From positions 17,983,296 through 18,047,295 of the forward strand of contig OX637292.1 of assembly GCA_951799445.1 (NCBI GenBank): a stretch of DNA of 64,000 nucleotides. The letters run 5' to 3'. Source of the stretch: Pseudisothecium myosuroides. Taxonomy: Eukaryota > Streptophyta > Bryopsida > Hypnales > Lembophyllaceae. Numbering within the stretch: position 1 is the stretch's first letter; each line of letters begins with the position of its first letter. The notes beneath the pieces are model-generated. The model was not told the DNA's origin and did no database searches. It saw nothing but the letters and a program-made list of their open reading frames with translations. Below, piece after piece: positions 12,857-47,219 of the stretch. Made by a program: the position numbers and the translations under genes.

Positions 12857-13139
12857 GGGGCACTTTACACTATGGCCAAAGTTCGAGAGGGCCAAGGGTT
12901 TCCACCAATCAAATTTCAAGAAACCAAGAGTTCGGATTCTCAAACCTTCACACTCGAGCCTAGAGTCCAAAGACCATTGCCCTCCAAATTGATTACATGG
13001 TAGAAAATTGCCTACATGGCAACAAACTCTTGAAAGAAGTTTGGGTTGGCTAGAAATGGAGACCCAAACTATGGTTGAGAACCCATGAGAGTTTTTTCTT
13101 AAAAAATTAGAATCTTACAAGATCTCAACTATTAGATTG

Positions 13140-13360
13140 GTATAGATTTGGACTTTGGGCTTGGCGTTTGAAGGCTTTACACTATGGCCATCCAAATTGA
13201 GAGGCCGTGAGAGTTCATTGCTACAAGTTTGGACTTTGGGTTTGGCCTTGAGAGGCTTCACACTATAGCCATCCAAATTAAGAGGCCGTGGGAGTTCATT
13301 GCCAAGGGTTTGGACTTTGGGTTTGGCCTTAGGAGGCTTCACACTATAGCCGGCCGAAGG
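13140..13360. repeat. 81-bp tandem repeat, about 2.6 copies
   Basis: Units carry TTTGGACTTTGGGYTTGGC, then GGCTTYACACTATRGCC, then AGAGGCCGTG. On the minus strand this gives an open frame (13115-13342) with a repeated KAKPKVQT-NEL-RPLNLDG peptide. That is a by-product of the 81-bp (27-codon) period, not evidence of a protein. The ACACTATGGCC word is also part of the host element's terminal repeat, so the array may have grown from subterminal sequence. Confidence 0.75.
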
Positions 13361-22164: not shown

Positions 22165-23406
22165 TGTACGTACCTCCCTTTACTACCCACAAATGCTCTA
22201 CCAAGTCTTCTCTCAAACTGTAGTGAGTGTCTTCATTTCCTATCTGTAATGTACCCATCAGTAGATCTTCATATGAAAAATCTCAAAGCAGTGGCGGAGC
22301 TTTGTGAACATCAAACGGCAAATCCAGACTTGTTTTTTGTTCATCTTCTAGAATCATATTGTGTAGAATGCAGCAGGCGAACAAGATGTCTGAAATACAT
22401 TGCAGACTCTATTGTCTGTATAGATTCTGTATAATAGCAAATCGTGCTTGTAGTACGCCAAAACAACGTTCAACATCTTTGTGAGCGCTTTCTTGTTGTT
22501 TAGTGAAGTGAGCAGTCTTTTCATCATCAGGTGCATGTATAGTTTGGACGAAGCATGACCATGGCAGATAGATTCCATCGGCAAGCAAATAGTAGCAGTT
22601 GTAGAGGGTACCATTCACAACAAACTCCATATTATAACCTTCACCTGTCAACATGTTGTGCAGAAGAGGGCTGCGGTCCAAAACATTTACATCATTGTTT
22701 GCACTAGGGAGACCGAAAAAAACGTGCCATATATGCAAACTTTAATCAGCAATAGCTTCTAAAATAATGGATTTGTTTCCATCTTTGTTACCATAGTCTC
22801 CCTGCCAAGCCACTAGACAATTCTTCCAATCATAGTGCATGCAATCAATAGATGCAAATATGTCAGGCCAACCACGCTTAGCATTTATGGCCAATTGGTT
22901 TTCCAAATCTGCTTGTGTTGGTTGCCTTAAATAATAAGGACCAAACTCTGCACGGACGGCACTATGCAAAATCTTTTCATGGCCTCTATAGCAGTGGATT
23001 TTGCAATCTTGCAGTATTCATCGATGGCATCTGTAATGATTCCGTATGCAAGCATACAAAGCGTTGTTGTGCATTTTTGAAGTGAGGACAACCCTAATCT
23101 TCCCACCGCATCACTTTTTTGCTGGAAGTAGCTATCACGTGCACAAACTCCCGCCATGATAGTAAAAAATAACGATCTTTGCACTCGAAAGTGATGTCGG
23201 AACTGTATTGGTCCATACATAGGACTCTCTGAGAAATAGTCAGCGAATAATCGCTCATGTCTTGTTGCCCTCTCTCTGTCCAAATTGCCACACCATCCAG
23301 GCCTAGACCCTCTAGCTATGCTTTCTAACTCAAGAATTGGATTATAGTTAGTCTGATCAAGGAAATCGTTGAAGATGATGTCTTCTTGTTCGTCATCCTC
23401 ACGCAT
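22165..23406 (-). pseudogene. PIF/Harbinger (ALP1/HARBI1-like) transposase, decayed
   Basis: The reading starts at the ATG at 23406 with an acidic N terminus. It continues through a helical region (YFSESPMYGPIQFRHHFR, then a frame shift after EAMKRFC near 22970) into the DDE_4 nuclease domain. There, IDCMHYDWKNC holds the first Asp, LPSANNDVNVLD the second and KDVERCFGVLQARFAI the Glu. The C terminus ends with DLVEHLWVVKG. The frame is broken by the frame shift and by in-frame stops at 22744-22742 (TAA), 22411-22409 (TAG, where the family has Trp) and 22285-22283 (TGA). The family cuts and pastes Tourist-type elements, often with a Myb-like partner; none is seen here. Inactive. Confidence 0.9.
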
Positions 23407-23944
23407 CGTTTGTTGTTGGGTAGCTAATCTGGTTCTCCATGACTCTATATTGATATTACAACATTGGCGCTTGATCTAGCTCCAACAATGTTAGCCTACT
23501 CTGTTTGTAGATTATTCTACAAAATACCAAGAACATTGTCAGTATTATACAACGACAATAGATGAAGTGCTAGTCATCACACTCTATGAACCTCACATAT
23601 TAACAAATGCACAAGTCAATAATTCAAAGAAATAATAACGATGAAGTGCAGTTAAAAAATTGCCCCCTCTAAACCCAAGGCTTTCATTGATGAAACTTTA
23701 AGGAATTTTCTAAAATTCAAATAGGAGACCAAAATTTTCATAAACTATGCAATTTTCTTTCATTGAATTCCATTAAACCCCTAAATGCCCAAAGCTTGTT
23801 TTGAGCCTCTTGGAATTTGCTCTAAATTGAACAAAAAGTCAACATTTTGATAAGTTGAATCAATTTCTCTGTGAATTGTAACCGTACAAATTCAAAATAG
23901 ACATATTAGAGAATACATAGGAAAAGAAAATACAACAATATCAT
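23407..23944. other. Flank of the Harbinger remnant, no gene
   Basis: AT-rich sequence without recognisable frames. The expected terminal inverted repeat of the Harbinger element was not found. Confidence 0.4.
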
Positions 23945-26900
23945 TTAAGGATTGAAAGATTATAATGTTTGATCATCAGAGTGTTAAAACTATGAAAATC
24001 TTTGAGCTCTCTTTTTGCATGTTAAAACTAGAAAGTTCAAGACCTAAAAAATATGAGGTTGAAGGGCCTAATAAATATAATCCCAATCAATTTATGACTT
24101 CTCAAAATGTACTCTACAAGTTTTTTAAATGAATTTCTAGTTTGATTTTTTCTCCAAGATCTAGTGTATTTGAGGCTCATTTCCAAAAGCCCTCAACGCT
24201 ACAAAAAGTCAAGATTGCAATGGGTACCTTTGCACAAAATCTTGAATAGAAAAATTATAATCATTCATTTTCAAAATCGGATTTTTGATGCTAATACTAA
24301 ACTTCAAAAAGAATCTTTCAAAAATATAAACTATTAAAAATAAAAATTTGATAAGGTTTCATTTAACTTCAAAGTTTCTTTGACACCACATTTAGGTGCC
24401 TTGGGCCTTTAGGAGTTAAGGTCCACGTACACATGCTACACATCATATGGGAGAAGTAAACACAATGATATCACTTCTACATGAAAACATTGAAATATTT
24501 GATCATGAGGGGAGTAGAATGGTGTAAGTCATTTCAAGACTGGAAATCCTCATTTCACATATTAAAATCAGAAGAGAAAAAAACATGTGAAAACAATGAT
24601 GTTAAAAGGCATAAAAGGCACCTATTCCCCAATAATGTGACAATTTTTTGAAATGTACTTCCCAATTTCTATACATTAATTCCTAAAACACATTTTCCCT
24701 CCCACTTCTATTGTATGTGAGGTACATTTCTAACAATCTTCAATACGGTGAAATCTAGATTGGCAATGGGCACCCTTGCCCAAAATCTTACATAGCAAAA
24801 TCATAATCACTATTTTCTTGAATAGGAGTTAACATGGTATAACGAGACTTTCATCATCACTTGTCACTTGTCAGAAAAATAAAATACTAAAAATAGAAAC
24901 GTATTCAGCTTAACTTGAACTTCAAAATATTGGTGACAAGAAAAATTATCACTTGTGCATTGAACCCCTAGAGTTAACTATAGGATCTTGCAGTATATTA
25001 ACTTCAAAACATGTGGTAAAATTTTTAGAAATTTTCACTTCATGGATTGTTGGATATCAACATTCAAATTCATTCAAATTAGGTTTTTGATCCTACAAAA
25101 AATTGGGCAACTGCAATTTAGAAGCTATGAAAAAAAGTCCAAAATGGGGGGGCTTTATTGGATTTTTTTCCCTAGACAAGTTGGTTACATGCTTAAATTT
25201 CTTCAAATCATTAGGAATTGTACAACATATGGAAAAAAATAGTAAGTAGAAAAAATAGAGAATGATTTAAACTACTAAATTGTTAAGAATTTCATTATGG
25301 AATTACAAAATGTTAATCCTAATGTTTGTAATGTTGTAATAAACAATTTGCATCTTATGATTTTAACTTTTTCAAAAAACATTGAAAATTAAGTTTAATA
25401 AACAACTTCAAATCTTATTTTAGAGTAGAAAATCCAAAAATGTCCGCAAACAAAAACTCTTTATAACTTATGATTCATTGATCAAAATGGAATGATTCAA
25501 AACTTTCCATGTATATATAAATATAAGAAACCAATTTCAAACTTTTGTTTTCGAAAAAAAAATTAAAATTAATATGCATGGACATCCCATTTACCAAAAA
25601 AAGGAACATATTAGACTATAACTTTTGACTCATATTTGCATATGTCATGAAATTCAGTGCATATAAAAGACATTCCTTGTCTACATCTTCTACTACAATT
25701 TCAACCAAAATATGGAAATCCTCATTCATACGAGCTTGCCAAAAATTTCTATGTTGTCCAAAAACGCATGTTGGTCCTTTACAAGTTAACCCCTCATCGC
25801 CTGAAGTCCAAATGAGGTCAAAAACAGCGTTGCTTTTGAAGTGTTGTAAATTTAGATGTCGCTAAGTTATAGAAATCTTAACCATACAATATTGTAGTGA
25901 ACATGTTGTAGATGACATAGAAAAAATCTGAAGCCATTTGACCGCATGGATTGAAAGATTATAATGTTTTAGTGTTAAAAAAAGATGTTGAAATTTTCCA
26001 AAAAGCACATTTGGAGGTGAAATTCGACTTCTAAACCTACTCAAATGAAAAACTTGAGACTATAAAGTGATTCAAAATCAACATACAAACACATTGGTGA
26101 AAAAAAATATCATTCAATTGACTCAATGTGTCTGCAAAATAGATTTGAAATGTCAAAAAATAGCATGAAAAGTTGCAAAAAACACCATGTAAGGCTAAAC
26201 CTCCTCCACTAAAAAGCATCTCAATCATTCATTACTTTTTGGATTCAAGTGAAATTTTAGCCACACAAACTAGACTAGTATGCGCAACTTTCACAAAAAA
26301 AATTATTGAAAATGGACATTGTATAAAGAAGTTACAAGCCGCCGAATTTCACTGTAATCCAAAAATGGCTGGATTTTAAATTTTGAATTGCTCCCAAACA
26401 TTCAAAGAAGCTTGTATTGACATGAAAATTTTACCACAATAACTAGACTAAAAGGGGAACACAACCCAACAAATTTTATTGAAAACGAACATTGTATGAA
26501 GGAGATACACCCCCCCCCAAAGTTTCAGCCATCAAATGCAGTTTGGTGAATTCAAATTGAACCTGTGAACTTTGATTGGCTCCCATTTAATTTGTAAATC
26601 TTGGATTGATCTGAAAATTTTACCACACAAACTAGAAGAGAGAGCGCAACTTTACCAATAAGTTTTATTGAATTCGGATATCGGATGCAAAAGTCACAGC
26701 ACTTTGAATTATACATGAGGACACTTTTCGTCCCCTCAGGCGATGAGGGGTTAAAGATTACAATGTTCGGTCATGAGGGTGTTAATGAGAACTACAAAAG
26801 TGATTTGGAGTCTTCCAATCCTCTTATCACGTACCAAAAAGAGAGAAATGGATCTTAACAAAAAAAATTGAGGTTGTAAGGCATAACATGTACAACCTTG

Positions 26901-27597: not shown

Positions 27598-28522
27598 TTA
27601 ACCGCTAAAGGACCGAGGCCTATTTTCTGCCAAAAAACACTCAAAACTGCCATTTCTATAGCAAAGAGTAAAAACAAATTTTAATTGGTTTTTTTCACAT
27701 CTAACCGTATGATCTTACACCTAAATAGTATAAAAAAGTGTGGAAAAAATTTCAGAATTTTTGACCGCACAGATTGCAAGATATTTGCTTTTAAAGTGGA
27801 AAAAACAAGTTTTTCAGCACATTGCGGGACTGGATTTTTTGACTTTGAACATTTTTAACTTAAATTTTTTTGCACTACAGAGTTTTGAGCTTTAAATCTT
27901 TATGGTGGAGAATTGAGTTGAGAGTCTAGGAAAAAAAAAGAAATTCAAAAAAACTTAATTATCATTCTTCAAAAAATTGTTAAGTAGAAGTAGATACGAG
28001 ATAGAAGGAAAATTTAAAATATTTATATATTTTAGATGGAATTAAAATACACTAATTCCAATGGTGAGATTGTTCTAAAAAGTAAATTAAACCATGAGAA
28101 TTTATTTTTTTGAAAAATTGCAAAAATTGCATTCAGAAATGAATCCTACAAGTTATTTTTTTCAAGAAGATGCTCTAACTGCCCGAAAAACAAGAATGTC
28201 CATAACTTCCTCATAACAAAGTCAAATGAAATGAATCAAAGCTTTCCAAATAGACAAAAATATAATCTATGAGAAAAAAAATATTTAAAAAAAAATTCAA
28301 AATTTTGCGAATTTTTTTTGCTGCCTCCCGTCCCCACGCATTCCAAGAAATGGCATAACTTCTTGCTCGAAGGTCCAATTTCAAATTTTTTTTGCCACGT
28401 ACCTCTCTCAATTCTTCACATTCACAAAAAATTTCAAAAAATGGTATGAATTTGTCCCCTCACAGGTACATGCCCCAAGTCCCATTTGTCCCCCTAATGG
28501 ACAATGGTCCTTTAGGGGTTAA
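27598..28522 (+). mobile_element. TTAA-flanked non-autonomous element, CCCCTAAAGG subfamily (complete)
   Basis: The left end is TTAACCGCTAAAGGACC, the right end GGTCCTTTAGGGGTTAA; 925 bp in total. Inside, an ordered set of words recurs in all family members: TTTTCTGCC, CTGCCATTTCTA, GATCTTACACCTA, CAGATTGCAAGATAT, TTGTTAAGTAGAAGTAG, and CAAGAATGTCCATAACTT near the right end. The site used for nested insertion in its sister (TTTTAAAGTGG, about 27795) is intact here. No coding capacity. Confidence 0.85.
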
Positions 28523-30971: not shown

Positions 30972-31835
30972 TTAACCCCTAAAGGACCATTGTTCGTTTG
31001 AGGGACCAATGGGATTTCGAGCAAGTACCTATGGTCTCAATTTTTGTCTTGATTTTTTGAATTTTTTTTTAAAGATAGAAAAATTAACTAGCTTTGTGAG
31101 AATATAATTTTTTTTTCAATCGGTGCCTGGGAACAAAAAAATATGTCCAAATAAGCTCAAAATAGGGAAGAGGGGGCAGCAAAAAAAATTTCAAGAATTT
31201 TAATTAAATTTTTTTCCTCATAGTTTATATTTTTATCTACATTGAAAGCTTTGATTTATTCCATTTGGATTTGTCATGAGAAAGTTATGGACAATCTTGT
31301 TTTTTGGGCATGAGAGCATCTTTTTGAAAAAATAACTTATAGGATTCATTTTTGAATCAAATTTTTTACAATTTAAAAAATAAAAATTCCACATGGTTTG
31401 GTTTGTTTGCTAGAACAATCTTACCATTGACTTTAGTGCATTTTCAATTCTATCTTGGAGATATTGTTAATAATTTAGATTTTCCTTCTATCTCTACCTA
31501 CTTTTACTTAACAATTTTTTAAAGAATCAAATTAAGTTTTTTTCAATTTTTCTTTTCCTAGACTTTCAACCCAATTCTCCACCATAAAGATTTAAAGCTC
31601 AAAACTCTGTAGTGCAAAAAATTAAAGTTAAGAAGGTTCAAAGTCAAATAATTTAGTCCCGCAATGGGTTGAGAAACTTGTTTTTTTCACTTTAAACGTA
31701 GATATCTTGCAATCTATGCAGTCAAAAATTCTGAAATTTTTCCACATACTAGTTAGGTGTAAGATCCTATGGTTGGATGTGCAAAAAAAAAATCAAATTT
31801 TTTACTCTCTGCTATAGAAATGACAGAAATCCTTA
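30972..31835 (-). mobile_element. TTAA-element copy, reverse orientation, far end truncated
   Basis: It starts with TTAACCCCTAAAGGACCATT at 30972, which is the right-hand end type of the 27598 copy. It then runs through the family's internal words in reverse (CTTACTTTTACTTAACAATT type block near 31500, ATCTTGCAATCTATGCAGTC near 31705, TAAGATCCTATGGTTGGATG near 31755). It fades after GACAGAAATCC, where the other terminal repeat should follow. Confidence 0.75.
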
Positions 31836-34250: not shown

Positions 34251-35087
34251 GGACATATCATTTATACATATAGATTTCAAAAATAGGATTTTTATTTTTT
34301 ATTACATTTTTTTATACCTACCGAAATATATTGAAATTTATAAAAAAAATTGATGTAATTTTGTGATGGCTAAATTAATGAGATTTACGACATGCCAAAA
34401 GTTGCATGCAATTACCATGTTTATTTTGTAGAAACATTTAATTTTTTAATATAAAAATAAATAAATAAAATTCTATAAATAATAGGATTAAATTATTTTA
34501 TCTTTTAATATATTAAAAATTACATAATTCTAGCCAATCAAACTAAAATTTAATTAAAAATAACCTAATTTGTATCCGTAATAAATTTTAAACAAAAAAG
34601 ACTTCAAAATCCTAAATTTTCTACTATGAAAATTATCAATTCCATCAACTTAGTTCTACTATTATTTGTATGCATATGATATTAATCTAAACCACAAATA
34701 ACTTTTATCAAAAATTGAGAATTGTTAATTCCAATGGCGAGAATGTTCTAGTAAACAATTGGAATGCTCTTTTTTGTTTTATTTTGAAAAATTTGAAGAC
34801 TGAGTTTAAAAATCAATTTTATATGTTTTTTTTACCTTCATTGCCTGCAAAATAAAAGTCTTCGTAGCTTTTGCTTCATTATTCAGAATTGAATGGTTCA
34901 AACGTGTTTGAGTAGGTATCAATTTAACATTTGCAATATTTATTGAAATGACTATAAACAAAGCTTCATACACAAAGTGATTAGCATCAATCCTAAAAAT
35001 TAAATGCAAAGTTTTTCAAATTATAACTAGTTTGACTGCCAGTCTTCAAAAAATCCTAAATGGGCTCATTAGTCGTTTAGGGATTAA
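34250..35087 (+). mobile_element. Degenerate TTAA-element copy, only right end clear
   Basis: The right end GTTTAGGGATTAA (35075-35087) and the internal word TTAATTCCAATGGCGAGAAT (34729-34748) place it in the CCCCTAAAGG family. The left end cannot be recognised, so the start given is approximate. Confidence 0.5.
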
Positions 35088-35282: not shown

Positions 35283-37812
35283 TCATTCCTAAAGGATCGA
35301 GTAATCATTTGATATATACAAGAAATCTGAGATAGATTCACATAAAGGCAATTCTCAATGGATGTTTTGACAATAGGTGAACATGTATTCCCTTGGTGGA
35401 AGTATAATTTTATTCCGAGTGGGTGTGTGGATCAAAATTCTATACCACCCTAAAAGAATTGGGTAGTTTAAAAAGATTAGGTAGTTTGGGTAGTTCAAAT
35501 AGTTTGGAAATCTTTTCAAAATTCCATAAATACTTTTGAAATTTGGTAGGTATATAGCTAAAATAATGTAGGATGCAATTGTCAAAAAAATAACCATGCA
35601 TGTGTTGTGCAAAAATTTCATTCTAGGAGGAGTTAAAGTCAATTGACCCTTGTAAAAAAAAACATTTTCTTCTAACTTCAAACACTATAATCTTTCAATC
35701 TTTATAGTAAAAGTTTCTAAAAAAATTTCCATACATTTCCATAGTATTCTAATACAAATTTGTGTGATTGAATCTTTATATTTAATTCATTTTTTTTGAG
35801 TACCCTATGTAGTAATAGTTTCTGACAACTTTTCTTAGGGAGATCACTAGCGTTTTTTTAGAAAACTACAACTTAAAAGATAGGTTCTATTTAATTCAAA
35901 GGGGGAATCAAAGTTCTATATAATATGTAGGGTTAGTATAAGGTCTATAAAATGCTACATATTCTAATATATAAAAATTAGGTTATGTAAAAACATCATG
36001 TAGTAGGAATTTTTATGAATAAGTCAACCTTGACAAATGGAAGTTGTGCAAATTTTTCATAATATGGTAAGTATAGATGTGAACAAATTATTTTTTCATA
36101 GATGATAAAATGAATATAATCAAAAGAATCTTCAATGAAGGGCAGTTGACTAAAATTTTGTCACAGTACTAATAGTGTATATATCAAAAAAATTAAATGT
36201 AACTATAAGACATTGACTACAAGTGACAAAATTGTCACATTGCACAAATAGGGAAGTATACCTTAGTAGGTTCAAAGAACTAATAATTGTACAATAAGAA
36301 GATAGAATTTATAGTCCATTTAACTTCTATTTTTGAAGCTTGCCATATGTGTTAAACACACATATTAAATAGGATGTTTATAAGATAGTTTTAGTGAAAA
36401 TTTTGAAGTGTTCGATGGTAAACTTGTTATTAATCTCTAAAGGGTGGAGGGTGTTTTGGAAGAGGAAAAGTCAAAAATTGCCAAATTGCCAATTTTTGGT
36501 GCATTGTCTAAAATAAAAAAATTAATTCTTTTTTGGAATTTCAAACATACAAAAGTGTGTTAAATAAGTAAGTCAATCTCTAGGAAAATTTCAGCCCATT
36601 TGACCTCTTGTGGATTGAAAGATTATAACGTTTGAAGTGAGAAAAAATAACTTTTTTTCATTCCTGCAAAACAAGGGTAGTAGACTTTGAGCCCTCTTAG
36701 AGTAAATTTTTTGCTCTATATAAAATGATGAATTTGATCATTTATAATTATACAATATTAGGTTCATTCAAGAAAATTTTCAAAAGCAAATATGGAGTCT
36801 AGCTTACTATAAATCAACCTGCAATGATAGGAGTTTAAAAGTGCATAGGCAATACACTAGTCATTTTTTGATGATTTTTTGTGCAATGAAGAATTTTTTA
36901 ATTTAAAATCCAAATGGTAAAAAATTAGAAAAAAGTATTTGGAGTATATTGGAAAAGTTTCAAAAACTTCAACTTCATATAATACGGCATTTGAAGTTAT
37001 AAAAAAATATTTTTTTTGAAGTTGCCCCAACATAGCTAACAAAGTTTGACTCCTCTTAAAATGTGATTTGAAAATAAACTTTTTTGGTACAATTGTATGC
37101 CATATTTTATTAGTTACATAAGTACCAAATTTCAAAAATTGATGAGTGTTTTTGTAAAAGATGCCCCAAGGATGCCCAAATTGCCCAAACTATCAAAAAA
37201 GTTTAGAAAAGCATAACTTTTGGTCCGAAAACCCAATTGGAAAGAAAAATCATATCACTAAAGGAATAGATGTTTACACCTTGTATCAAAATTTTGTGGA
37301 CATCTGACAAAAATTGACTTCATAGAAATGTCTCTTCAACGGACAATTCCTATGAAGTCAGTTGAATCCGGGTTCCTATGAAATCAATTGAATGTCTCTT
37401 CAACGGACAATTGGCCTTTAGGAATTAAAAACTTCCACTTTGTCAATGGCACTAGAATTGATTTGATTGTTGTTGATTTCATGGTAATTATCCTATACAT
37501 GTATGTAGTAGAGGGAAGGAAAAATTTGTGAAGAAGGGTTGGGGAGGGAAAAATTGGACACTTAAATTTTTTATATGTAAGATAACTCCACTTAAAAACC
37601 CACATGAATGAATTTACAAAAACCATAGGCTATTGGAAATATTCCGTTTGTAGTTTTTATGTAAAAATATGGTCATCTTAAATAGACAAATTAAGGTAAA
37701 TAGTCCCATATCAAATCCCGTTTTAATTCAAGCGTATACCAGGTTAAATTACAAGGAGTGATCTCCCCGAGCAATTTTTGCCCAAAATGTGCCCTAATCC
37801 TTTAGAGGTTAA
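35283..37812. mobile_element. Outer TTAA-type element, split by a nested copy
   Basis: The right end CCTTTAGAGGTTAA (37799-37812) pairs with a decayed left end, TTCATTCCTAAAGGATCGAG, near 35283. The total length is explained if 36430-37428 is a later insertion. The left end has lost its TTAA, so the pairing is tentative. Confidence 0.4.
36430..37428. mobile_element. TTAA-flanked element, about 1 kb, probably nested
   Basis: The left end is TTAATCTCTAAAGGGTGG and the right end GGCCTTTAGGAATTAA. Near the right end a word containing TCTCTTCAACGGACAATT is duplicated (37330 and 37394). There is no coding capacity. An open frame at 36857-37135 (minus) has no motif. Confidence 0.6.
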
Positions 37813-37999: not shown

Positions 38000-40900
38000 T
38001 TAATCTTTCAAAGTTATCGCTAACCAATCAGGTTGATATACACCTTCTACTATTAGATGATTTTTTTTTGCATTTCCTTCTAGAGTGTTTTCTGGAGCTA
38101 AACGTATTAGTCCCCATGTTGTTTTATTTACATCATAAATTACAAATTCTGGTTGACATACTCTAAAAGCTATCAAATCACCACTACTATACACTTCATA
38201 TTTAATAATTCCTTTTTGCCATCGATTTTTAAATAACTTGAGTGCGTATACCTCAGGCATAATACCATTTTCAACAAGAGCATACTCTCCATTTGGTGTA
38301 CCTTCTTCATCTAATAGTACTTCTACAATCACTACATTTTTAGTATTTTTTGTAGTCAATGTTGCTTCACGCGTTATTGCATATATTCTATTATTTGCTA
38401 CTTTTACAAGTTTAGGTGCCTCTGGGATTTGTATATCTCCTATGCCATGTAATAAAAAGCGATGCATTACATGTTGGTATCTACTTCTTTCACAATTGAT
38501 GTAAAAAATAGATGGTAATTCATCATCCGCAGTTTGTTCTGGACAAGGAATAACTTGTAGTCCACCAAAATAGAATCTATAGTTTATGACAACACAATTT
38601 CCAAAACCTCCTGTATTTTCAAAATGATTTGTTTTGGTATGTTCAAAATGATCAAAATGATTCCATGTCTTATCTGCAGAACTATATATTGCAAAATTTA
38701 CTATATGTATAGGTCTTTTCTTTGGTATTTTTTTTTCATATTTTTGGGCGTGTTCAATTATATCAGCTGCAGTGGGTTCAATTTTTTCACATCCAAGAAT
38801 AAATAATCGATAATTTCGATCTTTTGCATTTGAAAAACTCAAATATCCAATTTTTTTCTTAAATACATTAAAAGGAATAGGCGGTAAAAACATGTATTCA
38901 TGAGTCAAAGGATTTATAATGGTAAGTAAACTTTGATCTTTCTCATGAACATAGTTATTGAATTTTTGAGTATCGTAAAACACCCACTTATAATTTATAT
39001 GAATCTTAGAAATTGCTGGTTTTTTACTATCTAATACAATAAGTCCATCATTTGCAGCAATTACTTTTGCAATTATTGGAGAATTTATCCACTCTAAAGA
39101 TGGCATTATAATCCAACCTTCTTGGTTGCAATCTTTGCTAGTGTCATCTATATCTCTATTATTTCTATAATCAAAAGCTAGAATTTTTTTTGTTGATGTA
39201 TTCAAAACAATAGGAAAGTACCTATTGTATATTTTTAAATCATCATCCATATATAATTGGGGATTCCAAATGTTTACTTTTGATGTATCAATATTGTTAT
39301 CATTATTGTGCATGATATTCCAAGCTTCAATTTTTTGTGAGTTGGAGAATATATTCATGCAAATGCCAATCAAAAGTGGATTTTCCATGTTTTTCCATTC
39401 TAGAGGTATAGGTTTATTTATGTAAGTCAAGGCAATGTCTAGTGATGCAGAATTTGAAGTAGATTGCCATTTGTTAATACTAGATCTTGAATTTGAACCT
39501 ACTTCAAAAGTTGTATTAGTATTGAGACCTTGTAGAGCACTACTCATTGACTTCTTTTGAGCATCTATAATTTTATTTAATCCTTTGAGATTGTCTAATT
39601 TGAGGCTTCTTGATTTGAATAGAACATTTCCACCTTGTTTTACATTAATTTTTATTGTATTTAAAGGTAGAAAGTTCTCTTGATTTTGTGCATTTGTTGT
39701 TTTAGTATCATAGGATGAACTTTTTAGTGATGTAACTTCAGACAAATCCATGCATTCATCTTCATTCAAAATATAACCATTGGCTTTACTATTATGTGAT
39801 AGTAAAGAGTCTTCAATTGTTGATATATTTAGTGGAACTTTAGACTCTGAGGTATCACTATCGTCAGTCAAATCGGGATCATAAAGTTCAAGGACTTTAG
39901 AGGTAGAAGTTACGTATGCATCCCCTAATTCTTGTGATGCCTTTATATCATCTAACCCTACTATAAACCTTGCTTCATCATCTACTTCTTCAATTATTCT
40001 TGTACCTTCTTCAACTTCAATCATTTCACTTCTACCACGATAATCATTGTGACTTAATGAGTCAAATGAGTCAAAATTTAATGTGTTTGGATCAAAATGT
40101 GATGATATATCAGAATTGGAATTTGGCGTATATGAATCGTATATATTTGATACATTTATATTATTAAAATTTGATAGATTTAAATCAAAAATTGATGTAT
40201 CTATATTAAACATTGATGTATCAACTTCATTGAGTGAAGGATGGAGTCCAAGATTACTCAGTTCAGCTATTAAATATTCAAAATCTTTACTAGAACCATC
40301 TATTGGAGAATTAGGAGGTTGAGGCTGTAGAATTGGGGGTGGTTGAGGAGATACTACCATATTCAATTTTCCTACTTTATCATTTTTCTTATCTACAAGC
40401 TCATACAATGTTTTGAAATTTATTCCTAAAATTGTATTGATGTATTGATTTTTTTCTAAAGTCTTATTAAGAACACGCTTAAGAATGTCTTTAAATTGAG
40501 GTGACAAATCACGACGCTGTTCATTGCGATTTGTTTTGCTTAAGCGCCTTGGTTTATCTTTGTAGTTTGTTGTGTTTGGGTTGTAAGACCGAGCTTGTCT
40601 TGAACGAGGCTTACGTGGAACATTAGCAAATTCATCTCTTAAATTTTCAATATGCAAATTTCTTTCATATCTATGGTTGTAATCTTTGTTGAATGATTGA
40701 GTGTTTGGAGAATCCCACAATGTATACTCTCCGTCATCAACATTGTGAACATGGTAATCTAAGTTATTATCACAGTATAAAAAATCATTTTGAAAATCTC
40801 TTTCTGTTTCATATGAACTACTAGGATTTCTATTTGTATAAGATTGTGCACTAGTTTGACCAAGTCTTTCTAAACTATTTGAACTGTATTCATTAATAAG

Positions 40901-41116
40901 ATGTAAGTGTTTGTTATTTTTATAGTATTGAGATTGATGTTGATCGATTCTTGTATATTGTTTGTCATCTTGGATAAGACTTTCTAAAAAACTAAGGCTC
41001 CCTGGACTCATGGCACCAGGATCAGCTAGTCCTATATAATCTTTAGTAGACAAAATTGTTGCATCTTCATCAGAACCATCAAAGAAGTAATGAGCATCTT
41101 GCAAAACATGAGCCAT
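38000..41116 (-). CDS. Intronless 1038-aa protein: disordered N-terminal half, F-box-associated/kelch-like C-terminal half
   Basis: A single uninterrupted frame, ATG at 41116 to TAA at 38000, in AT-rich repeat DNA where chance frames rarely pass 130 codons. Residues 1-560 are low-complexity: Asn/Ser/Asp-rich, with a basic patch (167-205, KPRSRQARSYNP), a Pro-rich stretch (256-271) and acidic segments. From about 580 to 1035 the sequence becomes ordered. ANDGLIVLDS (688-697) is followed by INPLTHEYMFLPPIP (734-748), FAIYSSADKTWNHF (808-821), RFYFGGL (847-853), NRIYAITRE (909-917) and IYDVNKTTWGLIRL (993-1006). That order, with NPLT-LPP and YSS-TW, is typical of plant F-box-associated/kelch beta-propellers. 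No F-box is visible. Such proteins normally recruit substrates to SCF ubiquitin ligases; without an F-box that role is not implied here. Codon use is AT-rich like the surroundings. Function unknown. Confidence 0.75.
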   Translation of the reverse strand: MAHVLQDAHYFFDGSDEDATILSTKDYIGLADPGAMSPGSLSFLESLIQDDKQYTRIDQHQSQYYKNNKHLHLINEYSSNSLERLGQTSAQSYTNRNPSSSYETERDFQNDFLYCDNNLDYHVHNVDDGEYTLWDSPNTQSFNKDYNHRYERNLHIENLRDEFANVPRKPRSRQARSYNPNTTNYKDKPRRLSKTNRNEQRRDLSPQFKDILKRVLNKTLEKNQYINTILGINFKTLYELVDKKNDKVGKLNMVVSPQPPPILQPQPPNSPIDGSSKDFEYLIAELSNLGLHPSLNEVDTSMFNIDTSIFDLNLSNFNNINVSNIYDSYTPNSNSDISSHFDPNTLNFDSFDSLSHNDYRGRSEMIEVEEGTRIIEEVDDEARFIVGLDDIKASQELGDAYVTSTSKVLELYDPDLTDDSDTSESKVPLNISTIEDSLLSHNSKANGYILNEDECMDLSEVTSLKSSSYDTKTTNAQNQENFLPLNTIKINVKQGGNVLFKSRSLKLDNLKGLNKIIDAQKKSMSSALQGLNTNTTFEVGSNSRSSINKWQSTSNSASLDIALTYINKPIPLEWKNMENPLLIGICMNIFSNSQKIEAWNIMHNNDNNIDTSKVNIWNPQLYMDDDLKIYNRYFPIVLNTSTKKILAFDYRNNRDIDDTSKDCNQEGWIIMPSLEWINSPIIAKVIAANDGLIVLDSKKPAISKIHINYKWVFYDTQKFNNYVHEKDQSLLTIINPLTHEYMFLPPIPFNVFKKKIGYLSFSNAKDRNYRLFILGCEKIEPTAADIIEHAQKYEKKIPKKRPIHIVNFAIYSSADKTWNHFDHFEHTKTNHFENTGGFGNCVVINYRFYFGGLQVIPCPEQTADDELPSIFYINCERSRYQHVMHRFLLHGIGDIQIPEAPKLVKVANNRIYAITREATLTTKNTKNVVIVEVLLDEEGTPNGEYALVENGIMPEVYALKLFKNRWQKGIIKYEVYSSGDLIAFRVCQPEFVIYDVNKTTWGLIRLAPENTLEGNAKKNHLIVEGVYQPDWLAITLKD

Positions 41117-43127: not shown

Positions 43128-43266
43128 TTAACCTCTAAAAGACCAAGGCCTATTTTCTGCCAAAAAGCACTCAAAATTGCCATTTCTACAACAAAGTATA
43201 AAAAAATTCAAAATAGTTTTTTTTGCACATCTACCCATAGGATCTTACACCTAACTAGCATGAGAA

Positions 43267-43671
43267 TCATTTGGACAAAATTGTACCCCCCAAAAGGCCG
43301 CTTTGCAATGCAAAAATTTGGGTGGAAAGAGCCTTCTCAACTCGTTAATCGTACCAAGATTTGCATGATGGGCTCAAATATTTGTCATGATTATCCAATC
43401 CATCTCCACAATCACTACAATCCATCTCCACAATCACTACAATCCATCTCCACAATTCACCGTTTATCCACTCCATCTCCACAATTTCTGCAATCTCCAC
43501 AATCCTTCTCCATGATTCACTGTTTACAAATATCTATGTGCCAAGTGGCTACAAGTATTTCTTCATAGTGGCACCAATGACGATGTGGCCGCCCTTATAC
43601 TCATTCAATTAGTACTAGAATTAGTAAAAAACTCAAAGCCTCTTATTGGATACAATTTCCTCCTAATGGTG
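43267..43671. mobile_element. Small MITE-like insertion with imperfect 22-bp inverted ends
   Basis: The insertion interrupts the word GAGAATGTGTGG, which is continuous in the copy at 46.4 kb. Its ends, CATTTGGACAAAATTGTACC and (reverse complement) CATTAGGAGGAAATTGTATC, match at about 16 of 20 positions. The interior contains the tandem CCATCTCCACAATCACTACA unit. The open frame 43260-43568 runs through it but is low-complexity. An AAT repeat may be the target duplication; the exact edge is off by a base or so. Confidence 0.6.
43388..43515 (+). repeat. Tandem repeat based on CCATCTCCACAAT
   Basis: Two exact 22-bp units and several diverged ones (CCATCTCCACAATTCACC, CTCCACAATTTCTGCAAT), followed by TCCTTCTCCATGATTCAC. 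It lies entirely within the MITE-like insertion. Confidence 0.7.
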
Positions 43672-43721
43672 TGGAAAAAAATTCAGAATTTTTGACTGTA
43701 TAGATTGCAAGATATTTGTGT

Positions 43722-44303
43722 TTAACCCCTAAAGTCCCATTGGCCCTATGGGGGTCAAAATGCGACTTCGGGTAGGCTCCTACAGTCTCAATATTCATTA
43801 TAATCTTCTAAATTATTTTGTGAAGTTGAAAAAATATATAAGCTTCTTGGGAATATAATTTTTTATTCAATCACTACACGGAAGCAAAAGTTATGGTACA
43901 AAAAGCCGAAATATGAAGGTCAGTAGTCAGCCCAAAAAAATTCACAAAAAGTCCTTTTTAGAATATTTTTTCTAAAATATTATATTTTTGTCTACATGTG
44001 AAACTTTGATTCATTCTATTTGGACTAGTGATGAAAAAGTTATGGACAACCTTGTTTTTCGGGCAATCGAAGCATGTTCTTGAAAAAAAACTTTTTGTCC
44101 AACTTTGAATGCTAATATCTTCCAATCCGTATGGTCAAATTTGATGAAATTTTTACTACATGATTTCAGACAATTGAAGTACAAGATCCTATGGTTAGAT
44201 TCTAAGAAAAACATTTTTTCTACTTTCATGGATGAATGTAGCAGAAATGGCAGCTTTGAGTGATTTTTGACAGAAAAAATGGCCTTGGGACTTTAGGGGT
44301 TAA
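43722..44303 (-). mobile_element. TTAA element nested at an internal TTAA of its own family
   Basis: The left end is TTAACCCCTAAAGTCCCATT and the right end GGGACTTTAGGGGTTAA; 582 bp. The host reads GATATTTGTG-TTTAA before it and TTAA-AGTGAAAAAAAC after it. The sister copies at 27598 and 46279 read GATATTTGCTTTTAAAGTGG and GATATCTGCGTTTAAAGTGG without interruption. The insertion therefore duplicated exactly TTAA. The orientation is opposite to the host, and it is shorter than full copies by an internal deletion. Confidence 0.9.
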
Positions 44304-44399
44304 AGTGAAAAAAACAATTTTTTAAAAACATTGCAGGATTAGATTTTTTGACTTTGAGTATTTTTAACTTTAAATTTTTGTACTTCAAAGTTTTGAGCT

Positions 44400-45308
44400 T
44401 TAATCCCTCAAGGCCTAACAATGTTTTGACCATGGAGGTTTTCAATGAATCTTCCCTCTTTGATATATTTTTGCACATGAATGTGCTTAAAATTCTTAAT
44501 TCTAACCGTACAAAAGTAAAGACTGCTTTGTCTAGTATGCATGGAATTAATTGTGGAAAATATTGACTGTTGGATTTGTAGATTATAACAATTTTGGATG
44601 ATCAACATTATAGGCAAAACAAGCAGCTTTTGGAGAAGAAAAATTAAAGCAAGATGAATAAATTTTTCTTCCCTCCAAAAAATTGTATTGGAATCTAAAG
44701 CAAATATAATATTTATTCGTTTTTTTAAATGAGAAATAAAAAACTCCCTCAAATTTGTAAACATTTTCAAACAGGAGTAGAAAGTCAAAACTAACCAAAT
44801 TAGATCCTAGAATATTTAAAAAAATTTATATACATGTCAATTATTGAAATTTAACAATTGATATTATTAGCATATTGTGTAGAACATCTTAAAAAAGTTG
44901 GAATCAATCTAATTATTTTTGTGTTCTTAATTGCACCAAATTGAACCTTGAAATTTTTAAAATTGCTAAAAATACAAATTTAAATTTTTTTTCTAGACCC
45001 AGTTTGTTTGTGCAAAGTAATGACTAGAAATGTTCAAGAATATGTTCTTTCCATCCCTTCAATTCCTTTCATTGTAAAAAATCTATGTTTGCTCCCATTT
45101 TTCTATTAGACTACATTTTCTAAACAATGTTTTTTAATACTTCTCACATTGAAATTTTGAAAATCGAAAAATGCAACAAGTTTGTAAACTTATTATTCTA
45201 CAAGTTCCTAGTTTATAAAATATTGAGATTTGTTTTTCCCTATCGAGAATTTGCCATTGAAATTTTTGAAAAGGACACATTGTCTCCTCTTAGTCCTTGA
45301 GGGGTTAA
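44400..45308. mobile_element. TTAA element, CCCTCAAGGCC subfamily, nested in the same host
   Basis: The left end is TTAATCCCTCAAGGCCTAAC and the right end AGTCCTTGAGGGGTTAA; 909 bp. It sits at the TTAA of the host word TTTTGAGCTTTAAATTTTTA, which is intact in the copies at 27.9 and 46.6 kb. Its interior differs from the CCCCTAAAGG copies, so this is a distinct subfamily using the same target. No transposase; the frames 44408-44788 and 44583-44798 (minus) carry no motif. Confidence 0.7.
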
Positions 45309-46278
45309 AAAACTATCGTTGCAGTTGAGTTATGCCTTACAGATTCTTTAAAAAATTGTTAAGTAGAAATAAATACAAGATAGAAGGAAAATCTAAAATA
45401 TTAATATCTTTTGTTGGAATTAAAATGCACTAATTCCAAAGGTAAGATTGTTCTAGCAAGCAAACTAAACCATGTTAAACTTTTTTTTTAATTGTGAAAA
45501 TTGCATTAAAAAATGAATCTTACAAGTTACTTTTTTAAAAAGATGCTCTAATTTTCCAAAAAACAAGATTGTCTATGACTTTCTCATAACAAATCCAAAT
45601 GGAATGAATAAAAGCTTTCCATGTAGACAAAAATATAACCTATGAGAAAAAAAAATTATGAAAAAAATTCAAATTTTCAAATTTTTTTTTGCAGCCCCCC
45701 CTCTTTCCCCTGCTTTGAGCTTATTTGGGCATAACTTTTGTCCCCGAGCACCAATTAAAAAAAGGTTATACTTCCATGAAGCTAATTAATTTTTCTATTT
45801 CAAAAAAAACTTTAAAAAAATCGGGACAAAAATTTAGCTTGTAGGTACCTGCCCAAAATCCCATTTGTCCCCAATGGGACGAATGGTCCTTTAGGGATTA
45901 AATTGTAATAACAGTTTATTTTGCAATTGAAAGAGCATGGTTTACTCCAAAAACCCACTTCTTTTATCATCCAACAAATATTGTGAGGTGCAAAAAGGTC
46001 TTAGCAACTCACTCATAATTCATTTTTTCCGGCGCTATAATGGTACCTTGCAACATTCTATTGAGAGAGCTACATTTAAAAAAAATTGGTTTCTATACCA
46101 ACACATCATTTTTTTATGCCAATAGCTACAACACCATTTATGAGATAGGTGCTGCTATTGGTATTCCTACCTTAATAAATTCAAAATTTGGTGATCCACC
46201 ATCATTTGCTCCAACACAATAATATAAAATATAATTTCTAGAGATTACATAATAGAATGACCCTGCTTCTCCCCACTA

Positions 46279-47219
46279 TTAACCCCTAAAGGCCTAAGGT
46301 CTTTTTTCTGCCAAAAAACACTGAAAACTGCCATTTCTATAGCAAAAAGTTAAAAAAAGTTAAAATTGTTTTTTTTTCACACCTAACCATAGGATCTTAC
46401 ATCTAATTGGTATGAGAATGTGTGGAAAAAATTTCAGAATTTTGGCCGCACAGATTGCAAGATATCTGCGTTTAAAGTGGAAAAAACAAGTTTTTCAGCA
46501 CATTGCGGGACCAGATTTTTTGTCTTTAAACATTTTTAACTTAAATTTTTTGCACTACAGCGTTTTGAGCTTTAAATTTTTATAGTGGAGAATTGAGTTG
46601 AGAGTCTAGGAAAAAAAAAGAAACTCAAAAAAACTTAATTTTCATCCTTAAAAAAATTGTTAAGTAGAAGTAGGTATGAGATAGAAGGAAAATCTAAAAT
46701 ATTAATATCTCTTAGATGGAATTAAAATGCACTAATTCCAATGGTGAGATTGTTCTAGCAAGTAAACTAAACCATGCCAAAATTTTTTTTTTGAAAAATT
46801 TGAAAAATTTCATTCAGAAATGAGTCCTACAAGTTATTTTTTTCAAGAAGATGCTCAAACTGCCCGAAAAACAAGAATGTCCATAACTTTCTCATAACAT
46901 ATCCAAATGAAATGAATCAAAGCTTTCTAGATAGGCAAAAATATTATCTATCAGGAAAAAAATATTAAAAAAAAAATCCAAATTTTTGTCCATTTTTTTT
47001 CTGCTGCCCGAGCTGCCCGCCGTCCCCTGTTTTGAGCTTATTTGGTCATAACTTTTTTTCCCGGGCACCGATTGAGAAAAAAATTATATTCCCACAAAGC
47101 TCATCAGTTTTTCTATCTCCAAAAAAAATTTCAAAAAATCAGAACACAATTTCAGCCCGTAGGTACCTGCCCGAAAACGCATTTGTCCCCCGAAGGGACA
47201 ACGGGCTTTTAGGGGTTAA
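46279..47219 (+). mobile_element. TTAA-flanked element, complete copy of the CCCCTAAAGG subfamily
   Basis: The left end is TTAACCCCTAAAGGCCTAAG and the right end GGGCTTTTAGGGGTTAA; 941 bp. It is collinear with the 27598 copy throughout. It keeps both TTAA sites that were hit in the 43128 copy, which makes it the best local reference for the family's uninterrupted structure. Confidence 0.85.

Follow-up and report, generated by a model that had tools for sequence, protein, structure and literature searches.

In the genome of the moss Pseudisothecium myosuroides, a 582-bp element bounded by TTAA lies inside another repeat, which raises the question of what kind of transposable element it is and which transposase moved it. 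The locus is situated in the window, the whole stretch of 64,000 nucleotides that was analysed, on contig C6 of the assembly. The piggyBac superfamily is best known from animals, and piggyBac is in wide use for genome engineering. The reading favored here, with a probability of roughly 96%, is that 43722-44303 is an internally deleted, non-autonomous piggyBac element in a moss, and that it was moved by the transposase of full-length relatives. Coordinates and sizes of the features are given in Table 1.

Table 1. Features of the nested locus and its sister copies in the window, and complete transposase-coding elements of the assembly
Feature	Position or length	Strand	Remarks
Host element, ~930-bp family	43128..45901	+	Split by three insertions; from alignment with sister copies
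Host pieces (approximate)	43128-43282, 43669-43725, 44300-44403, 45305-45901	+	From alignment
Third insert in the host (approximate limits)	43283..43668		Not at TTAA; ~14 bp of the host present on either side
Nested element, probably non-autonomous piggyBac-type, 582 bp	43722..44303	-	Inverted relative to the host; both terminal TTAA counted in
Left TTAA target-site duplication of the nested element	43722..43725		From flank reading
Right TTAA target-site duplication of the nested element	44300..44303		From flank reading
Second nested TTAA element, 909 bp	44400..45308		Different family; related ends TTAATCCCTCAAGGCC / TTAACCCCTCAAGGAC
Sister copy of 925 bp, target site intact	27598..28522	+	
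Sister copy of 941 bp, target site intact	46279..47219	+	
Fourth family copy, uncut target site	30972..~31826	-	One end lost or decayed
Complete element E17	5626 bp		Open frame of 758 aa; both ends
Complete element E28	5566 bp		Open frame of 780 aa; both ends
Complete element E34	5632 bp		Open frame of 1091 aa; both ends
Complete element E09	5414 bp		Open frame of 1056 aa; both ends
Complete element E26	5098 bp		Open frame of 840 aa; both ends

The nested element and its target site

The coordinates of the 582-bp element were exact, with TTAACCCCTAAAG running from 43722 and its inverse reaching up to 44303. The element starts with TTAACCCCTAAAGTCCC and finishes with the inverse, CTTTAGGGGTTAA; its terminal repeats begin with CCC, and CCCCTAAAG is present at both ends. 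When up to two mismatches were allowed, the end motif occurred 22 times in the window, versus a mean of 2.17 and a maximum of 7 in 100 shuffles. Some ends of the window copies have changed, namely to CCGCTAAAG at 27598 and to TTAATCCC at 45901, and one end is missing at 30972. More elements bounded by TTAA, whose ends are related and in part decayed, were observed at 23773-24419 and 36430-37428, along with single ends at 35087 and 37812.

The filled site of the nested element reads agatatttgtgt-TTAA-CCCCTAAAG...CTTTAGGGG-TTAA-agtgaaaa. Alignment of 43128-45901 with the sister copies revealed a single TTAA at this site in all three: gatatctgcgt-TTAA-agtgg in the 46279 copy, gatatttgctt-TTAA-agtgg in the 27598 copy, and gatatctacgt-TTAA-agtga in the 30972 copy (reverse complement). 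The initial annotation described a host word that is cut at TTAA, with TTAA on both sides; the duplicated TTAA here versus one TTAA in each of the three sisters bears this out. The uncut 20-letter word that it had reported for two sister copies is exact in the 46279 copy; in the 27598 copy it is one letter off, and the TTAA is uncut there as well.

The 582-bp element lacks ~340 bp of the family’s middle, lies in the orientation opposite to the host, and shares ~70-77% identity with the remaining copies in the window where the matches are longer, so it represents a sister subfamily of the host’s ~930-bp family. The earlier description of an element inside a copy of its own family was correct with respect to the nesting, and “own family” holds only in this wide sense.

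The host was entered a second time at TTAA by the 909-bp element, which has the ends TTAATCCCTCAAGG and TTAACCCCTCAAGG; the empty site of this insertion, GAGCT-TTAA-A, is kept in the three sisters. By our own arithmetic, the chance that two insertions both fall at TTAA is ~2 in 10,000, because the uncut 46279 copy contains 15 TTAA words in 941 bp with both ends counted, 13 of them internal. Family copies are dense in the window, a setting in which nesting could arise without transposition through recombination or gene conversion between repeats. However, both breakpoints lie exactly at the element ends with a 4-bp duplication, and this occurred twice in one host, which makes such an origin extremely improbable. 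The third insert in the host, of ~385 bp, may be a retroposed sequence.

Ends and transposase genes across the assembly

The 222 contigs of the assembly searched add up to 387.9 Mb. Eleven of them, named C1-C11, measure 17-55 Mb each; a 115-kb contig carries a RuBisCO large subunit gene and cemA. The CemA protein shows 99% identity to a 61-sequence cluster bearing the name of Hygroamblystegium humile, a moss of the Hypnales, and 91-94% to the clusters that follow, of which those at 94% and 93% are partial sequences of the mosses Bartramia and Plagiomnium; although such a cluster name is no guide to the genus, this indicates a moss, probably a hypnalean one. Exact TTAACCCCTAAAGG ends numbered 21,067 genome-wide, versus 1 for the reversed control. 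For CCCCTAAAGGACCA, 9,184 words were found, and TTAA directly precedes 8,083 (88%) of them; the 1,101 words without a preceding TTAA may be the product of mutation. Further copies of the ends, for which the initial annotation had proposed a genome search, were thus recovered in the thousands.

A profile search of the assembly with PF13843 (the piggyBac domain DDE_Tnp_1_7) returned 899 candidates; 116 were scored, all 116 exceeded the cut-off, and the best hit reached 1.7e-83. The control for this search was a set of 14 genomes, a weak one since those named are all prokaryotes. Matches were present on every one of the eleven large contigs, the window’s own among them. The stretches around ten transposase loci were joined for the end search, and five complete elements were obtained. 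All 10 of their ends are TTAACCCCT, the TTAA in them being partly due to selection because the search pattern contained TTAA. The five proteins matched PF13843 in Pfam at 2.8e-76 to 2.1e-84, with no other domain, and no PIF domain, above the cut-off. Genes of the piggyBac transposase that was to be sought do therefore lie between ends of the same kind, and no domain of another transposase was found in the five proteins. Together with the empty sites and the 88% of end words preceded by TTAA, this supports the original attribution of the precise TTAA duplication to a piggyBac-type transposase.

Three further transposase loci (E18, E19 and E20) are 98-99% alike, and their common sequence reaches the left edge of the retrieved DNA. 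They were dropped as complete elements, as the common left flank shows that the units extend further left. E15 has one end only; E21 has a left end with an extra C and an ambiguous left flank.

TTAA duplication is also a property of the Kolobok superfamily according to passages of PMC9587614 and PMC6004289, and T2-MITEs share it, so that the window’s elements could be imagined as Kolobok derivatives. Kolobok termini are given as 5'-RR...YY-3' (PMC9587614) and its transposase is a different one, whereas the window and E09/E34-type ends are 5'-CCCC, and a PF13843 protein is encoded in all five complete elements that carry ends of this kind. A Kolobok derivation was set aside because of those 5'-RR ends, and hardly any weight is left to it.

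At the protein level, E28 matched two structures in the PDB, piggyBat 9c0f at 1.7e-28 and 6x67 (“Transposase”, which we take to be piggyBac) at 2.5e-20. Its motifs TIDEM, TDNFF and GVDVADQ line up with piggyBat 9c0f, and the catalytic aspartates are conserved. All three motif patterns are present in 14 of the 20 transposase loci; they were wholly missed in L014, L016 and L023, and partly in L019, L024 and L027. In L019, K replaces E next to the first D.

In the protein search, those relatives of the E28 transposase that bear a name come from animals and have 25-32% identity, which would suit a scenario in which the piggyBac genes are animal contamination of the assembly and the window’s elements are unrelated to them. 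However, its nearest relatives are nameless proteins from the jgi, lgn and ena sources with up to 66% identity, and the transposase matches extend over all of C1-C11. The window carries PPR and peptide-transporter genes, and copies of its 930-bp family adjoin E09 and E26. We consider contamination scarcely credible.

Link between the window family and the transposase elements

Element ends were compared with the first 18 bp excluded, using 50 shuffles, with the bar set at 1.3-fold the highest score among them. The A end of the nested element scored 249 against E18 (largest shuffle, 28), 152 against E17 (30), and 60 against E28 (27). The B end of the ~930-bp family scored 71 against E17 in the 46279 copy (largest shuffle, 23) and 42 in the 27598 copy (27). 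The match of the window family beyond the terminal 18 bp therefore involves both ends of E17 and one end each of E18 and E28. No pairing with the ends of E26, E09 or E34 reached the bar; a few pairs with E09 and E34 ends were just above the shuffle maximum (24-27 versus 21-26, and 23 versus 22) and stayed under it. The nested element’s own B end, on the 43722 side, did not rise above the shuffles against the transposase-coding ends tested (best score 23, maxima 21-29). Its tie to the transposases thus appears to run through the A end and the sister copies.

The transposase domains of E17, E18 and E28 are 60-71% identical to one another and 36-48% identical to the other eight compared, in a comparison that covered 11 of the 20 loci and left E34 out. 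Judged by these identities, the elements with matching ends belong to a single transposase clade. Among the elements retrieved, no autonomous one was 80% alike across the whole window family. A simple deletion of L021 was also considered as the origin of the nested element and was dropped: one matching piece is wrongly oriented and is rather a separate inserted copy. In L021, together with L043/L044, the right flank opens with TTAAAGTGAAGAAAA, the same host word as at the window’s nested site; this word may be an insertion hot spot.

Since the nested site shows TTAA duplication, the family’s ends match those of E17, and elements with such ends encode PF13843 proteins, the 582-bp element is very probably a non-autonomous piggyBac derivative. 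In the proposed mechanism, full-length relatives elsewhere in the genome (the E17, E18-20 and E28 clade) would make a piggyBac transposase, which would bind the element ends in trans and cut the 582-bp element from its donor site at TTAA. The element would then be joined to a new TTAA inside an older relative, where the TTAA is indeed duplicated. A transposase of the E17/E18/E28 clade thus probably moved the 43722-44303 copy in trans. Hairpin intermediates and seamless repair are described as established for piggyBac in a passage of PMC7351741, and by analogy the 43722-44303 copy may have moved by cut-and-paste via hairpin ends, with seamless excision.

Signs of recent movement in the moss genome

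Five E09 copies (L009-L013), located on five chromosomes, were 99.90-100% identical over 4116 bp in all 10 comparisons; this identity refers to the E09 copies, and the E34-type copies were judged by their ends. Ends were examined in all five copies with E09’s profile score and all six with E34’s. Each of these 11 insertions is bordered by TTAA left and right and has flanks of its own, and the TTAA lies at, or a few bases from, the position expected from E09 or E34. One E34 copy was inserted exactly at the terminal TTAA of another element, and a resident element’s terminal TTAA seems to serve as the target of the next. Abutting elements with one common TTAA were observed at L034:2318-2321, at L015:147-150, and in the left part of the joined stretch L035+L018.

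These 11 insertions also bear on a possible PIF/Harbinger (Tourist-like) origin, in which a 3-bp TTA/TAA duplication would mimic TTAA. PIF/Harbinger elements and Tourist MITEs are common in plants and use a T/A-rich target, and duplication of TAA or TTA by Tourist elements is stated in a passage of PMC10004981. Moreover, the window contains a PIF/Harbinger gene at ~22330-23406 on the minus strand (Plant_tran PF04827 at 4.6e-74), whose element ends were not found. In contrast to a 3-bp duplication and another transposase, however, the full 4-base TTAA stands at both ends between the unlike flanks of all 11 insertions, and the proteins encoded by the five complete elements are of the piggyBac type, with PF04827 or PF13359 in none of the five. 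This origin was set aside because of the 4-bp duplication and the PF13843 coding partners, and its likelihood is negligible. The Harbinger gene was rejected as a source, as no pair of such ends lies around it; the window listing contains no such end between 5436 and 23774, and therefore none just left of the gene.

With respect to age, the nested piggyBac-type element is ~15% diverged from E18 over the A end, E09 and E34 belong to other lineages, and E18-20 show the high mutual similarity given above; the window’s own insertions are thus older than the E09 copies. The sequences nevertheless carry signs that piggyBac was very recently active in the moss genome, and we infer that this activity may be continuing today. 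On balance, we lean toward the view that the moss is host to a native, presently active piggyBac population made up of several divergent lineages, which together with its gene-less offspring may amount to about ten thousand insertions or more.

Comparison with known piggyBac systems

The moss elements resemble piggyBac of Trichoplusia ni and piggyBat of Myotis in their TTAA duplication, their C-rich repeats starting from CCC, the DDE_Tnp_1_7 domain and the aligned aspartates, and differ from them in having a moss host. The complete moss elements are 5.1-5.6 kb long, compared with 2472 bp for piggyBac in PMC10813416; the same source gives a range of 1.23 to 9.51 kb for animal members and lists their end motifs as CCCTC, CCCTT, CCCAT and CACTA. 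The moss proteins, at 758-1086 aa, begin with a long N-terminal stretch that matched nothing in Pfam. Like animal piggyBac-derived MITEs, the window copies are short, gene-less, and have ends related to those of a full-length element. Unlike these, they comprise a ~930-bp main form and an internally deleted nested form, and exact ends number 21,067 in a 388-Mb plant genome.

The initial annotation called piggyBac-type transposases rarely reported in plants. This is fair insofar as piggyBac is absent from the six TIR superfamilies listed in a 2022 land-plant review (Tc1-Mariner, hAT, Sola, MuDR, PIF-Harbinger and CACTA) and is named nowhere else in its text, but other sources do name it for plants. 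A 2024 plant review counts PiggyBac as a class II superfamily, and in a 2023 MITE review (PMC10004981) it is one of the seven superfamilies into which angiosperm MITEs are sorted according to their ends and target-site duplications. The superfamily is said in PMC10813416 to have been isolated from “insects, fungi and plants”. A fern repeat table contains 1230 PiggyBac entries making up 0.00% of the assembly, and a grass repeat table has one entry of 75 bp. In the relevant passages of the plant reviews naming piggyBac, no native full-length element is mentioned. Among the matches listed from the open-licence literature, no title or abstract opening refers to native piggyBac in a moss, and in the text of one moss genome paper both occurrences of the word are “piggybacking”.

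The element at 43722-44303 is thus a member of a known superfamily in a land-plant host with signs of very recent piggyBac activity. If the moss does harbor the native, active population envisaged above, this would be a large piggyBac bloom in a plant group for which no such report was found, and transposases adapted to plants and capable of seamless excision would be readily at hand. The thousands of ends and the five near-identical E09 copies make the silencing or tolerance of piggyBac in plants testable, as are the performance of the transposases in plant cells and the question of whether piggyBac is ancestral in mosses or was acquired by horizontal transfer.

Two other features of the window were recorded. 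An open frame of 1038 aa at 38000-41116 on the minus strand had no Pfam match at E 0.001, and an 81-bp unit at 13136-13297 is duplicated in tandem with 84% identity.
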